Shown here: in pieces, positions 3,091 through 13,762 of the stretch
Layout: the number at the start of each line of letters is the position of its first letter
Numbering within the stretch: the first letter of the stretch is position 1
Origin: Brevibacterium picturae
Lineage (GTDB): Bacteria; Actinomycetota; Actinomycetes; Actinomycetales; Brevibacteriaceae
Reading direction: 5' to 3'
Assembly (NCBI RefSeq): GCF_900105045.1
Contig: NZ_LT629739.1
Span: forward strand, 930,001-994,000
DNA length: 64,000 nt
Position numbers and translations under genes: made by a program
The notes under the pieces: model-generated
What the model saw: only the letters and a program-made list of their open reading frames with translations
What the model was told of the DNA's origin: nothing
Databases searched by the model: none

Positions 3091-3127
3091 GTCGGGTCCA
3101 CGGGGAGGTGTTCCCCGTGGACCCGAC
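3091..3127 (-). terminator. Strong hairpin after uricase operon
   Basis: A perfect 16-bp inverted repeat (arms 3091-3106 and 3112-3127, 5-base loop) sits just past the uricase stop codon and just before aceE. On the minus strand it is followed by GTGTTTGAG, only a weak T-run. It most likely ends the uraD-uraH-uox transcript and separates it from aceE. Confidence 0.75.
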
Positions 3128-6506: not shown

Positions 6507-6974
6507 ATGAGCACACAACTCGAAGTCGGACAGAGCGCACCGGATTTCTCCCTGGCCGATGCCAGCGGACAGACCTACTCGAAGGCGGACTTCGCCGGAA
6601 AGAAGGTTATCCTCTATTTCTACCCGAAGGCCGCAACACCCGGCTGCACGACCGAGGCCTGCGACTTCCGCGACAACCTCTCGTCCCTGGCCGCAGCCGG
6701 ATTCCAGGTCATCGGCGTCTCCCCCGATGATGCCGAGGCGCTGCAGGCGTTCACGGATGATCAGCAGCTGACCTTCCCGCTGCTCTCCGATCCGGGTGCG
6801 GAACTGGCAAAGGCCTACGGGTCATTCGGCGAGAAGACGATCAACGGCAACACCTTCGAGGGCACCCTGCGCTCAACCTTCGTCATCGACGAAGACGGCG
6901 CTCTCTCCGACGTCGAGTACAACGTCGACGCCGAGGGTCACGTCGCCCGCCTCCGCGAGAAGCTCGGCGCCTGA
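6507..6974 (+). CDS. bcp: Thiol peroxidase of the Bcp/PrxQ family
   Basis: Reduces hydrogen peroxide and organic hydroperoxides with electrons from thioredoxin. The 155-residue protein has the peroxidatic motif PKAATPGCTTEACDF, with Cys47 as peroxidatic cysteine and Cys52 five residues later as resolving cysteine, the arrangement of atypical two-cysteine PrxQ enzymes. AAAGGA lies upstream of the ATG. It follows glycerate kinase by 43 bases and may be co-transcribed. Its place beside uricase, which makes H2O2, is suggestive but could be coincidence. Confidence 0.95.
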   Translation: MSTQLEVGQSAPDFSLADASGQTYSKADFAGKKVILYFYPKAATPGCTTEACDFRDNLSSLAAAGFQVIGVSPDDAEALQAFTDDQQLTFPLLSDPGAELAKAYGSFGEKTINGNTFEGTLRSTFVIDEDGALSDVEYNVDAEGHVARLREKLGA

Positions 6975-6998: not shown

Positions 6999-7050
6999 CC
7001 CCGACGTCACTAATTGCGCCCGGCGCCGCCCGCATATAGTGACGTCGGGG
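6999..7050. repeat. 52-bp palindromic element, copy 1 (also a likely convergent terminator)
   Basis: Arms CCCCGACGTCACTA (6999-7012) and its exact complement (7037-7050) flank a GC-rich centre. Reverse-complemented, the second copy at 8166-8217 matches at 48 of 52 positions including the loop, so this is a repeated element and not merely a terminator. It lies between the convergent bcp and DUF559 genes, where it could stop transcription from both sides. Confidence 0.85.
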
Positions 7051-7054
7051 AGCC

Positions 7055-8044
7055 TTAGCGTGCAATGGCTCGTTCTGCGACGACACGTTTGATGTCTTCA
7101 AACGGCCCCACGGAGAACAACTGGCGCCAGGTCAGGTGGATCACCCGATAGCCTTGTGCCATCAATCGAGCGTCACGATTCTTCTCAGCTTCGAGAGCCT
7201 GCCGTGGTGTCCTGGTCCCCATCGAATACTTCCCGAGTCCATCGACCTCGATGATCACTTTTGACCCTCGGTGGCAGAAGTCGACCCGGGCCCACACGCG
7301 ACCGAAATCATCTTTGAACTCTACCTGAGGTTCGAACCCTCCGATTCCCGACTCGAAGAGCCTCACCGCGGCTATCGTTTCCGCCGGCGATTCCCGCCGA
7401 TCGTCCGCCAGGTCAAAAGCGCTCCGCGCCCTGAGCTGGGCACGAGCTTGACCACACTCTGCAAAGATCCGTTCGATCGAATCGACGTCGGTCACGCAGT
7501 TGTGAAGAACGTCATCGATCATCGTCACCGCGGTTGCCAAATCATAGGTCAACGCGACGTCGACCAATGTCCTCTCAACAGTGGTCACGCGGTAGATACC
7601 CACCGCGGTCACGTGCGCTGACGGCAAAGCGGCATTCCGCACCCGAAGATGACGATGCTTACGGGCAGCACCAGGCCGCAGAATCTCAACTCGCGGATCT
7701 GGAATGCCAGCAAGCGGGAGTCCGTGTATCAGAGCAGCGGAGAGGTGCGAGAACGTCTCTCGAACGGCACCGGCCGGATCAGAGGAATACTCCTCGTTGA
7801 CCTTCTCTGCCCGTGCACGGATGAGTGCCTTGAGATTCTGCTCGGAATCGCGGCGATCGTTGAATGTCTCAAACTGCTCAGCACTCCCCTCACTCACTGC
7901 TGCCCAGATGGTCGCGTGCTCGGGTGCGCGACACGTGCGCTCAACAGCGTACCGACCTCGAGCTATCCTCTGGACACAACACTTTTCAGCCCGCGCCAGC
8001 TCGCGCTTGGTGAATCCCGAGCGAAGCAATCGCGCCGTCGTCAT
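7055..8044 (-). CDS. AbiEi-type winged-helix plus DUF559 (PD-(D/E)XK nuclease-like) protein
   Basis: The N-terminal 40 residues (TKRELARAEKCCVQRIARGRYAV) look like the winged-helix region often called AbiEi antitoxin-like. The C-terminal part contains VDFCHRGSKVIIEVDGLGKY followed by EKNRDARLMAQGYRVIHLTW, the pattern of DUF559, a Vsr-like PD-(D/E)XK fold with Asp, Glu-Val-Asp and a Lys in place. Such proteins are common in Actinobacteria; their role is not established, and DNA cleavage is inferred from the fold only. Start: ATG at 8044; ATG at 8056 is an alternative and neither has a clear ribosome site. The gene is bracketed by inverted copies of a 52-bp palindrome and interrupts the purine block. 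Confidence 0.75.
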   Translation of the reverse strand: MTTARLLRSGFTKRELARAEKCCVQRIARGRYAVERTCRAPEHATIWAAVSEGSAEQFETFNDRRDSEQNLKALIRARAEKVNEEYSSDPAGAVRETFSHLSAALIHGLPLAGIPDPRVEILRPGAARKHRHLRVRNAALPSAHVTAVGIYRVTTVERTLVDVALTYDLATAVTMIDDVLHNCVTDVDSIERIFAECGQARAQLRARSAFDLADDRRESPAETIAAVRLFESGIGGFEPQVEFKDDFGRVWARVDFCHRGSKVIIEVDGLGKYSMGTRTPRQALEAEKNRDARLMAQGYRVIHLTWRQLFSVGPFEDIKRVVAERAIAR

Positions 8045-8107
8045 GATCGAATACATACAACAGATAATGGCAACAAACAGCATCATTCGCCATGGTGTCG
8101 ACAAAAC

Positions 8108-8128
8108 TGTGGATAACCCTGTGGATGA
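8108..8128 (+). repeat. Twin DnaA-box-like 9-mers
   Basis: TGTGGATAA (8108-8116) and TGTGGATGA (8120-8128) are direct repeats 12 bases apart, upstream of the DUF559 start. Each is close to the DnaA box TTGTGGATAA reversed in sense, but lacks the first T. Two boxes alone do not make an origin. Confidence 0.4.
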
Positions 8129-8159
8129 AGCCGCCGCTGAATTTCTTCGAGCAGACACT

Positions 8160-8223
8160 AAATCTCCCCGACGTCACTAATCGCGGGCGGCGCCGGGCAC
8201 AATTAGTGACGTCGGGGAGATTT
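8160..8223. repeat. Palindromic element, copy 2, with longer arms
   Basis: Perfect 22-bp arms (8160-8181 and 8202-8223) enclose a 20-base loop. The core 8166-8217 is an inverted, 48/52-identical copy of 6999-7050. On the minus strand it stands just after the allantoinase stop and just before the DUF559 gene, so it may also terminate the allantoinase transcript. Confidence 0.88.
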
Positions 8224-8240: not shown

Positions 8241-9620
8241 TCAGCGAGCGCGCAGCAGGCGGCCCTGGGGCTCGTCGAAGTTCACGGGGGCGCCGCGGAG
8301 AATGGTCTCCGTGACGCGGCCGCGGACGGCACGGGCGTCGTAGGCGCTGATCTGGTTGCGGTGATACAGGTCGGCGGCGGCGACCGTCCACTCCTCATCT
8401 GGGGCGAAGACTGCGAAATCCGCGTCGTTGCCGAGGGCGATCGCGCCCTTGTCCGCCACTCCGGCGACTGCGGCGGGGGCCGAGGACATCCAGGCCACCA
8501 CCTCGGCGAGGTCGATGCCCCGCTTCGCGGCCTCGGTCCACATCAGTGAGAGGCCCAGCTGCAGGGAGGAGATGCCACCCCACGCGGCGCCGAAATCACC
8601 GGTGTCGATGAGCTTGAGTTCGGCCGTCGAGGGCGAGTGATCGGAGACGACGCAGTCGATCGTGCCGTCGACGAGCCCCTGCCACAGTGCCTCCCGATTG
8701 GATTCTTCGCGGATCGGCGGGCAGCACTTGTGCGTGGTCGCCCCGTCCGGAATCTCCTCGGCAGTGAACACGAGATAGTGCGGGCAGGTCTCGACAGTGA
8801 GCTTCACACCCTCGGCCTTGGCCTCCGCGATCTGCGGGAGCGCATCGGCCGATGACAGATGGAGAATGTGCGCACGGGCACCGGTCTCCCGGGCGGCGTC
8901 GATGACGCGGGCGATCGCGACATTCTCCGCCTCACGGGGGCGGGAGGCGAGGAAGTCGCTGAACTTGCGGCCCGAGTTCTTCGGCGCCTCCGCCATCACC
9001 GAATGATCCTCGGCGTGGACGATGAGCAGACCGTCGTATTTCGCCAGCTCGGCCATATCGGTGCGCAGCTCCTCGGGCTCCAAGGGTGGGAACTCCTCCA
9101 CACCCGAGTCCTCGAGGAAGCACTTGAAGCCATAGACTCCGGCGTCGAAGAGGGGCTTGAGGTCCGTGGTGTTGCCGGGGATCGCGCCGCCCCAGAAGCC
9201 GACATCGACGAAGGCTTTGGGCTCTGCGACTTCGCGCTTGATGTCCAACGATTCGACGTTGACCGTGGGCGGCAGGGAGTTCAGCGGCATGTCGACGATC
9301 GTCGTCACGCCTCCGGCAGCTGCGGCTCGGGTGGCGCTGGAGAAGCCCTCCCATTCGCTGCGACCGGGATCGTTGACGTGGACATGCGAATCGACGAGAC
9401 CGGGCAGCAGCACCTGATTCTCGTCGACATCGACGACCTTCGCGTTCGCCGAGGTGGTCCCGTTCAGTGTTGCCCCCGCGGTGGCGATCTCGACGATCGT
9501 GCCGTCGCGCACACCGACCTCGGCCGCGCCCACGCCATCGGGCAGAACTGCCCGCTGGGCTCGGATGACCAGGTCAAAGCCCTGGTCGGTGGCCTGTGCT
9601 CCGCCGCCATCGACGTTCAT
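8241..9620 (-). CDS. allB: Allantoinase
   Basis: Hydrolyses allantoin to allantoate. This 459-residue member of the cyclic amidohydrolase family shows the metal-binding [14 protein letters not shown] motif, a lysine in [11 protein letters not shown] expected to be carboxylated to bridge two metals, [17 protein letters not shown] and the catalytic Asp in [13 protein letters not shown] precedes the ATG at 9620. It is the last gene of a same-strand series with hydroxypyruvate isomerase, tartronate semialdehyde reductase and glyoxylate carboligase, though a hairpin at 9671-9710 separates it from the latter. No allantoate-degrading enzyme is seen in the window. Confidence 0.96.
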
Positions 9621-13566: not shown

Positions 13567-13659
13567 GTTTGATGAAATCAAGCATAAGCAGGCTCGCGAG
13601 CCGGAGTCAACCCCCGCCGCAAAGTTCTCCGCACACTGCCCGCACCGCACGACGACGAA

Positions 13660-13719
13660 AGCAACCCTTCGGTCGCTGAGCACCCCGTAGCGAGGTTGCT
13701 CAGCGACCGAAGGGTTGCT
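13660..13719. terminator. Large near-perfect hairpin between guaD and hyi
   Basis: Arms of 23 bases (13660-13682 and 13697-13719), containing GCAACCCTTCGGTCGCTGAG and its exact complement, surround a 14-base loop. It sits after the guanine deaminase stop on the minus strand, with TTTCG following, so it probably ends the xdh-guaD transcript. The length and perfection of the arms exceed what termination needs. Confidence 0.7.
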
Positions 13720-13762
13720 GAGATTCATAAAGGCGGCGCGGGCGGAGCCCAGCGCGCCTGCG

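Follow-up and report, generated by a model that had tools for sequence, protein, structure and literature searches.

The 64-kb stretch of Brevibacterium picturae DNA analysed here (the window) carries, at 7055-8056 on the minus strand, a DUF559 gene for a 333-aa protein, which lies between two long palindromes of one sequence type that we call dialect A. The first palindrome, P1 (6991-7058, core 6999-7050), lies between the stop codon of the outer left neighbour, a plus-strand gene at 6507-6974 that we take to encode a bcp-like peroxiredoxin, and the stop codon of the DUF559 gene. The second, P2 (8158-8225, core 8166-8217), precedes the DUF559 start by about 100 bp and lies just past the stop codon of the outer right neighbour, a minus-strand gene at 8241-9620 that is presumably allantoinase-like. 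The DUF559 start was placed at 8056, where the N-terminal Met is invariant in 24/24 aligned relatives. The gene has a lower GC content (59.2%, over 7055-8044) than its neighbours (63.5% and 67.2%), and the same is seen in 90 DUF559 relatives, with a mean of 60.7% vs 65.7% for the remainder of their loci.

Two inverted palindromes had been reported at these core positions in a preliminary description of this DNA, and both are present. The cores are 48/52 identical after reverse-complementing one of them, as described, and 44/52 in direct reading, while the arms extend to about 68 bp, over which 54/68 positions of P1 and 56/68 of P2 are self-complementary. As RNA, both palindromes fold strongly on both strands (z -5.1 to -11.1, with 0/200 shuffles equal). 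A palindrome scan of the window gave scores of 14 (at 6999), 16 (3091) and 23 (13660), compared with no score above 12 in five first-order Markov sequences of the window's length; its loop limit of 8 left the 8166 element uncalled, and this element scores 18 once a loop of 10 is allowed. Neither P1 nor P2 was called by a T-run terminator scan, which is possibly unsuited to such a long stem, and Rfam at the gathering threshold returned one tRNA only for the whole window; two sub-threshold Rfam microRNA matches on the 8166 hairpin were put down to chance hairpin similarity. The window also has a hairpin with 16-bp arms at 3091-3127, between genes that we take to be pyruvate dehydrogenase E1-like and uricase-like.

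The label of AbiEi-like plus DUF559, given earlier to the protein, stays below the cut-off in Pfam: a search at E 0.001 returned no match for the window protein, and AbiEi_1 (E 0.002), DUF559 (E 0.0024) and motB, each sub-cut-off, are all that is listed. PADLOC AbiEi models fit it better (E 7e-8), and the label is clear by predicted structure (mean pLDDT 90, pTM 0.85), in which an AbiEi-like N-terminal part is followed by a Vsr/EDxHD C-terminal domain. Residues 1-218 of the model resemble AbiEi (6y8q, Z 10.9, rmsd 6.6, 169 residues), and the C-terminal domain resembles 3hrl (Z 12.7), the homing endonuclease I-Bth0305I (3r3p, Z 12.3, rmsd 2.5, 96 residues aligned) and DNA-bound Vsr (1cw0, Z 10.8). 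Residues E226, Q244, D259, E270 and K276 are invariant in 24/24 aligned relatives and, judged by the predicted fold, are candidate catalytic residues. Also invariant in these 24 relatives are C26, C27 and C42, a Cys-Cys ... Cys arrangement that is accompanied in the N-terminal part by a near-invariant His 47 and might bind a metal. Residues 73-217 of the model resemble MenT1 nucleotidyltransferase toxins as well (8rr5, Z 10.0; 8an5, Z 9.8).

Matched flanks and palindrome dialects

Of 57 Brevibacterium genomes, at least 30 have the DUF559 gene at the locus between bcp and allantoinase, the best 30 DUF559 matches among the 57 coming from 30 different genomes and all from this same locus. The arrangement is therefore not a recent insertion confined to one species. 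Both bcp and allantoinase adjoin the gene in 28/30 loci, the exceptions being L043, which has no bcp match, and L056, which ends at the contig end on the allantoinase side. Inspected by eye, the flanks of these 30 genomes fall into four dialects, A (5 genomes), B (19), C (5, with locus L058 as a weak member) and D (1). We also used a blind measure in which the left flank of a gene is aligned to its right flank, with a threshold score of 45. Matched flanks were found for 27/29 scorable locus genes (L056 being too short), compared with 0/187 genes of 600-1700 bp in the fetched loci and 0/29 genes of the window. The preliminary description had reasoned that its proposal would be undermined if the element occurred widely with no link to DUF559 genes and if the gene stood at this locus in all relatives with different flanks. 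Wide occurrence with no such link was not what we found; the gene in relatives does have different flanks, and this strengthens the proposal, since left and right flank nearly always match within a given relative.

Among the 27 other genomes, the allantoinase side was read in eleven, and none of these has a DUF559 gene there. In six of these (G031, G012, G014, G042, G034 and G006) bcp and allantoinase are convergent, with a short gap that contains one palindrome. The single palindrome of G014 is of dialect B, and this palindrome-only allele could be a cognate site that the gene has not entered, as expected for a homing endonuclease, or equally the product of gene loss through recombination. 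Gaps are longer in the gene-less loci of G050 (three weaker hairpins), G010 (two) and G020 (one), and the loci of G051 and G001 have different neighbours.

Other DUF559 genes are flanked by repeats too, as the preliminary description had suggested one should look for, and they have dialects of their own. Matched flanks were found in 33/60 paralogs at a score of at least 45 (23 at 60 or more), the 60 having been drawn among the matches listed, mostly from one-contig genomes, and in 14/20 DUF559 genes that could be scored in other families of the order, which were the best matches of the family model (L331 was too short to score). This family model has a match in 134/149 genomes of the order. 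A flank repeat common to different DUF559 genes of one genome was seen in just 1/128 pairs, exactly at the threshold of 45, and between genomes flanks are similar in 5/1192 pairs of proteins with less than 45% identity vs 448/591 pairs above 45%, a comparison restricted to matched-flank genes and in which orthologous loci inflate the upper identity classes. Each DUF559 gene thus appears, from these comparisons, to have its own palindrome dialect. The link is not universal, since phylum-wide only 5/24 scorable PF04480 loci have matched flanks. Within the genus, 27/60 paralogs score below 45, and at least 13 of these (L171, L174, L175, L177-L180, L189, L191, L194, L198, L209 and L222) have one conserved set of neighbouring genes and seem to form a lineage that lacks the palindrome pair; a GC-rich palindrome with CCGAGGCGGG lies on the 3' side in 7 of the first 12 of them. 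In L183, L190, L208, L217, L218, L219, L221 and L317 the matched flanks are mainly direct repeats and palindromes are unclear.

Dialects that are otherwise unrelated in sequence have in common a repeat at lag 19 within the arms. In 29 non-redundant arms of the genus, mean identity at this lag is 0.44 vs 0.27 in shuffled arms (z 7.8), and the next positive lag is 16 (z 3.3). A separate set of 11 arms from 7 loci of other families gave z values of 6.1 at lag 19, 3.6 at lag 20 and 2.0 at lag 25, all of them inflated because these arms were not reduced for redundancy. We infer from this periodicity two putative protein-binding boxes per arm. The pairing in dialect B is kept by two-sided changes in 15 pairs, compared with 7.6 expected (0/500 shuffles equal), and covariation in the nine-copy alignment of dialect A is at shuffle level.

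Exchange of the cassette and dispersal of its palindromes

On the tree of DUF559 proteins the dialect changes 3 times, the minimum, and 0/200 shuffles are as low. On a tree built from the neighbouring genes (allantoinase, bcp and a third, presumably glycerate-kinase-like, gene), whose bootstrap support is not fully settled, 9 changes are needed, against a shuffled mean of 10.3, with 28/200 shuffles as low. Counting its well-supported branches alone, dialect A must change 2 times, dialect B 3 times and dialect C 4 times. In this tree two genomes with dialect A, G005 and G044, fall with G046, which has B; other A genomes fall with C genomes (G052 with G049, and G056 with G004), and G017 (C) falls with G016 (B). 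As dialect fits the DUF559 tree and not the adjacent-gene tree, gene and palindromes have been exchanged together. Between G005 and G046 the sequences are near-identical as far as about 10 nt past the bcp stop, differ throughout the interior, and become near-identical once more at about the allantoinase stop. From these breakpoints and the conflict between dialect and tree, the exchanged unit is palindrome, gene and palindrome, and bcp and allantoinase mark the ends of the exchanged segment. A search by tblastn of plasmid and phage collections gave no match in either, and carriage by plasmid or phage was set aside.

Palindromes of these dialects also occur away from any cassette. A covariance model of dialect A, built from nine copies, matched at least 11 copies on both strands in the 4.44-Mb genome, 150 of 577 first-look candidates having been scored genome-wide. 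The consensus of the nine copies is a near-perfect palindrome that starts with CTAAACC, ends with TTTAG and has GGCGCC at its centre, so that its ends, CTAA...TTAG, are paired. All nine solo copies in this genome (9/9) lie between convergent genes. In the genus, dialect A has matches at 63 places in 17/57 genomes, and among the 60 places fetched 54 elements are called as lying between convergent genes, compared with 70/350 background junctions of the same loci; the ten cassette-flanking copies in this count were mostly scored against bcp and allantoinase, because the gene caller often misses the DUF559 gene. Among the 54 convergent cases, stop codons fall inside the element for the left gene in 14, for the right gene in 10 and for both in 6.

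The numbers of palindromes follow the dialect of the cassette. Expressed as strand matches (about two per copy, with 83 or 85 candidates scored per genome and models built from copies of the same genomes), dialect A gave 14-22 in the five locus genomes whose cassette is of type A, vs 0-6 in the remaining 25, and dialect B gave 26 to at least 85 in the 19 whose cassette is of type B, vs 1-23 in the remaining 11. Phylogenetically independent contrasts agree (2/2 and 3/3), these being few and with cut-offs set once the counts were known. No match to dialect A was found in the 27 genomes outside the 30, and 10 of them had matches to dialect B (at least 85 in G014), which counts against a strict link between solo copies and cassette. 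For dialect C no conclusion on copy number can be drawn, since the counts of its model, R3, cross-react with dialect B at the same places, at about 67 bits. A solo palindrome of dialect C lies in the window itself, at 13653-13726 between two minus-strand genes (G000:C1:943653-943726; 77.7 bits, the copy being itself a row of the model), and it has the dialect that is found on both sides of the DUF559 gene elsewhere in the genus. Solo copies were also seen for other cassettes. The dialect of the paralog L172 has 17 matches to its 14-mer in the B. picturae genome (at most one mismatch; 0 for the reversed control), and G081, from another family, has 37 matches to the 14-mer of its own cassette (control 0), several clusters of which repeat one 67-bp layout far from the gene; three other genomes gave 4, 9 and 10 matches.

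We compared by eye, in 40 genomes, one ordinary convergent junction unrelated to the DUF559 locus. There, 27 genomes with a cassette carry a palindrome, and its dialect agrees with that of the cassette in 25/27, the exceptions being G017 and G049; G014 carries a dialect-B palindrome without having the locus gene. The junction is empty in eight genomes, with stop codons 1-21 bp apart, and the remaining four have other sequence or another gene arrangement. Two of the empty genomes, G056 and G004, are close relatives (query identity 93-94% over the first half and 89% over the second) and read CTAG-ANC-TCAG where a filled element runs from CTAA to TTAG or TCAG. A comparison with these two close empty sites revealed no clear target-site duplication, in agreement with the earlier remark that none was seen. 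Gain and loss of the element cannot be told apart site by site at such junctions. In G038 and G003, dialect-B palindromes are split by a gene for an IS110-family transposase (PF01548, PF02371) with flanking DNA (L436, about 1486-2955; L435, about 1438-2898), at the centre of the palindrome in G038, where both halves are kept, and near one end in G003. Insertion sequences are described as targeting REPs in Pseudomonas and other genera in PMC3733652.

A putative nuclease cassette and its alternatives

Comparison between genomes shows that the matched flanks are specific to these genes, that protein and palindrome co-vary, and that the segment is exchanged at a fixed locus. It also shows that related solo palindromes sit at convergent 3' ends in numbers that follow the dialect, and that filled and empty sites exist. 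The reading that we consider probable, with some reserve, is that of a nuclease cassette bracketed by its own putative recognition palindromes and REP/RAYT-like in behaviour. The preliminary description had proposed a mobile cassette or repeat family comparable in concept to REP/RAYT, and this proposal gains support from the flanks, the trees, the solo copies and the empty sites.

We hypothesise that the AbiEi-like part would bind the boxes repeated within each arm and that the Vsr/EDxHD-type domain would nick or cut at or beside the palindrome. Repair from a copy bearing the palindrome or the cassette could then spread palindromes to gene ends and exchange cassettes between genomes. Hosts may tolerate such insertions because, placed between convergent genes, a strong hairpin can serve as a two-way terminator, and because the inserted palindrome sometimes provides stop codons. 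The upstream copy would probably act as an autoregulatory operator as well, by analogy with AbiEi at its own inverted repeats.

The main rival, which we hold to be unlikely, is purely regulatory: the protein would be a DNA-binding regulator with no part as a nuclease, the palindromes would be its operators, used for autoregulation at its own gene and as binding sites across the rest of the genome, and would not move, and the co-variation would come from co-evolution of regulator and operator. AbiEi indeed binds and represses at inverted repeats of its own promoter, according to PMC3985639, P2 is in the upstream region of the gene, about 100 bp from its start, and repeated boxes in the arms suit a wHTH protein. 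However, palindromes also lie downstream of the gene and at convergent 3' ends (9/9 solo copies), which are poor places for operators, the nuclease-type residues are invariant in 24/24 relatives, and the filled and empty states of one junction suggest that whole elements are gained or lost.

A further reading, in which the palindromes would be non-autonomous and depend for their movement on a different enzyme, such as an IS transposase supplied in trans, and the DUF559 gene would be cargo or a domesticated controller, we find improbable. The IS110-family genes that interrupt dialect-B palindromes in G003 and G038 indicate that such elements do meet, but these cases resemble an element that targets the palindrome; moreover, dialect tracks the DUF559 protein and paralogs have their own dialects, and one shared trans-acting enzyme would yield neither. 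Finally, it is highly improbable that we are dealing with ordinary bidirectional terminators, alike through gene conversion and with a DUF559 gene between two of them by chance, for although the elements are strong hairpins (z down to -11.1) and 54/60 of them lie between convergent genes vs 70/350 junctions, none of 187 other genes has matched flanks, the pairs around paralogs differ from gene to gene within a genome, a T-run terminator scan that may not fit so long a stem called neither P1 nor P2, and the eight genomes with 1-21 bp between stops indicate that a terminator is not obligatory at the test junction.

Known systems and wider meaning

The putative nuclease cassette shares with REP/RAYT systems a gene bracketed by palindromes (here 27/29 scorable locus genes) and palindromes that are dispersed, mostly at gene 3' ends (here at least 11 copies, with all solo ones convergent). 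REPs are dispersed and often lie between convergent genes, as described in PMC3733652, and REP palindromes and the RAYT enzyme have co-evolved, according to PMC8266576. The enzyme differs, being a HuH tyrosine transposase there and, by Pfam and predicted model, an AbiEi-like plus Vsr/EDxHD protein here, and so does the palindrome, which has 20-40 bp and an unpaired GTAG or CGTC tag there, compared with about 68 bp here, no such tag in dialect A and lag-19 boxes inside each arm; the host here is actinobacterial. In the absence of the defining HuH transposase, the DUF559 cassette is not a member of the REPtrons.

With the EDxHD homing endonuclease I-Bth0305I, which forms a dimer on a target almost 60 bp long, as reported in PMC3943268, the cassette shares the predicted fold of the catalytic domain (3r3p, Z 12.3), and six of the eleven cassette-free loci hold one palindrome in a short convergent gap. 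In contrast to that enzyme, it lies outside any group I intron or phage, has two bracketing palindromes and many solo ones, and its DNA-binding part is AbiEi-like. The AbiE type IV toxin-antitoxin system shares the AbiEi fold over the first two thirds of the protein (6y8q, Z 10.9) and the match to PADLOC AbiEi models; here, however, no AbiEii-like gene adjoins (bcp and allantoinase both do in 28/30 loci), the protein has a nuclease-type domain, and palindromes flank the gene. Both the long target of I-Bth0305I and the binding of AbiEi to inverted repeats would, by analogy, suit a long palindrome. Very-short-patch repair nucleases of the Vsr/DUF559 type share the C-terminal fold (1cw0, Z 10.8), and differ in lacking the AbiEi-like part and the association with palindromes; a Caulobacter DUF559 protein is described as Vsr-like and linked to DNA damage in PMC12907096. 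No literature linking DUF559 to palindromes was found in full-text searches, which had preprints and most subscription journals outside their scope.

The association of gene and hairpin points to mobile DNA, selfish or domesticated, of a type that has yet to be described. Whether it extends to a widespread actinobacterial class of mobile palindromes, in which nucleases of Vsr/EDxHD type with AbiEi readers have private dialects of 60-80 bp with repeated boxes and spread them to convergent gene ends, cassettes are exchanged between species and the whole forms a non-homologous counterpart of REP/RAYT, seems to us evenly balanced. If true, an abundant family of unknown function would consist of nuclease-palindrome pairs of many specificities, one class of recurrent hairpins at the ends of genes would be accounted for, and REP-like repeat populations could arise by a second route, unrelated in its chemistry to the first. 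With so many natural pairs of enzyme and site, the idea can be tested directly, and these pairs could yield new long-site nucleases.
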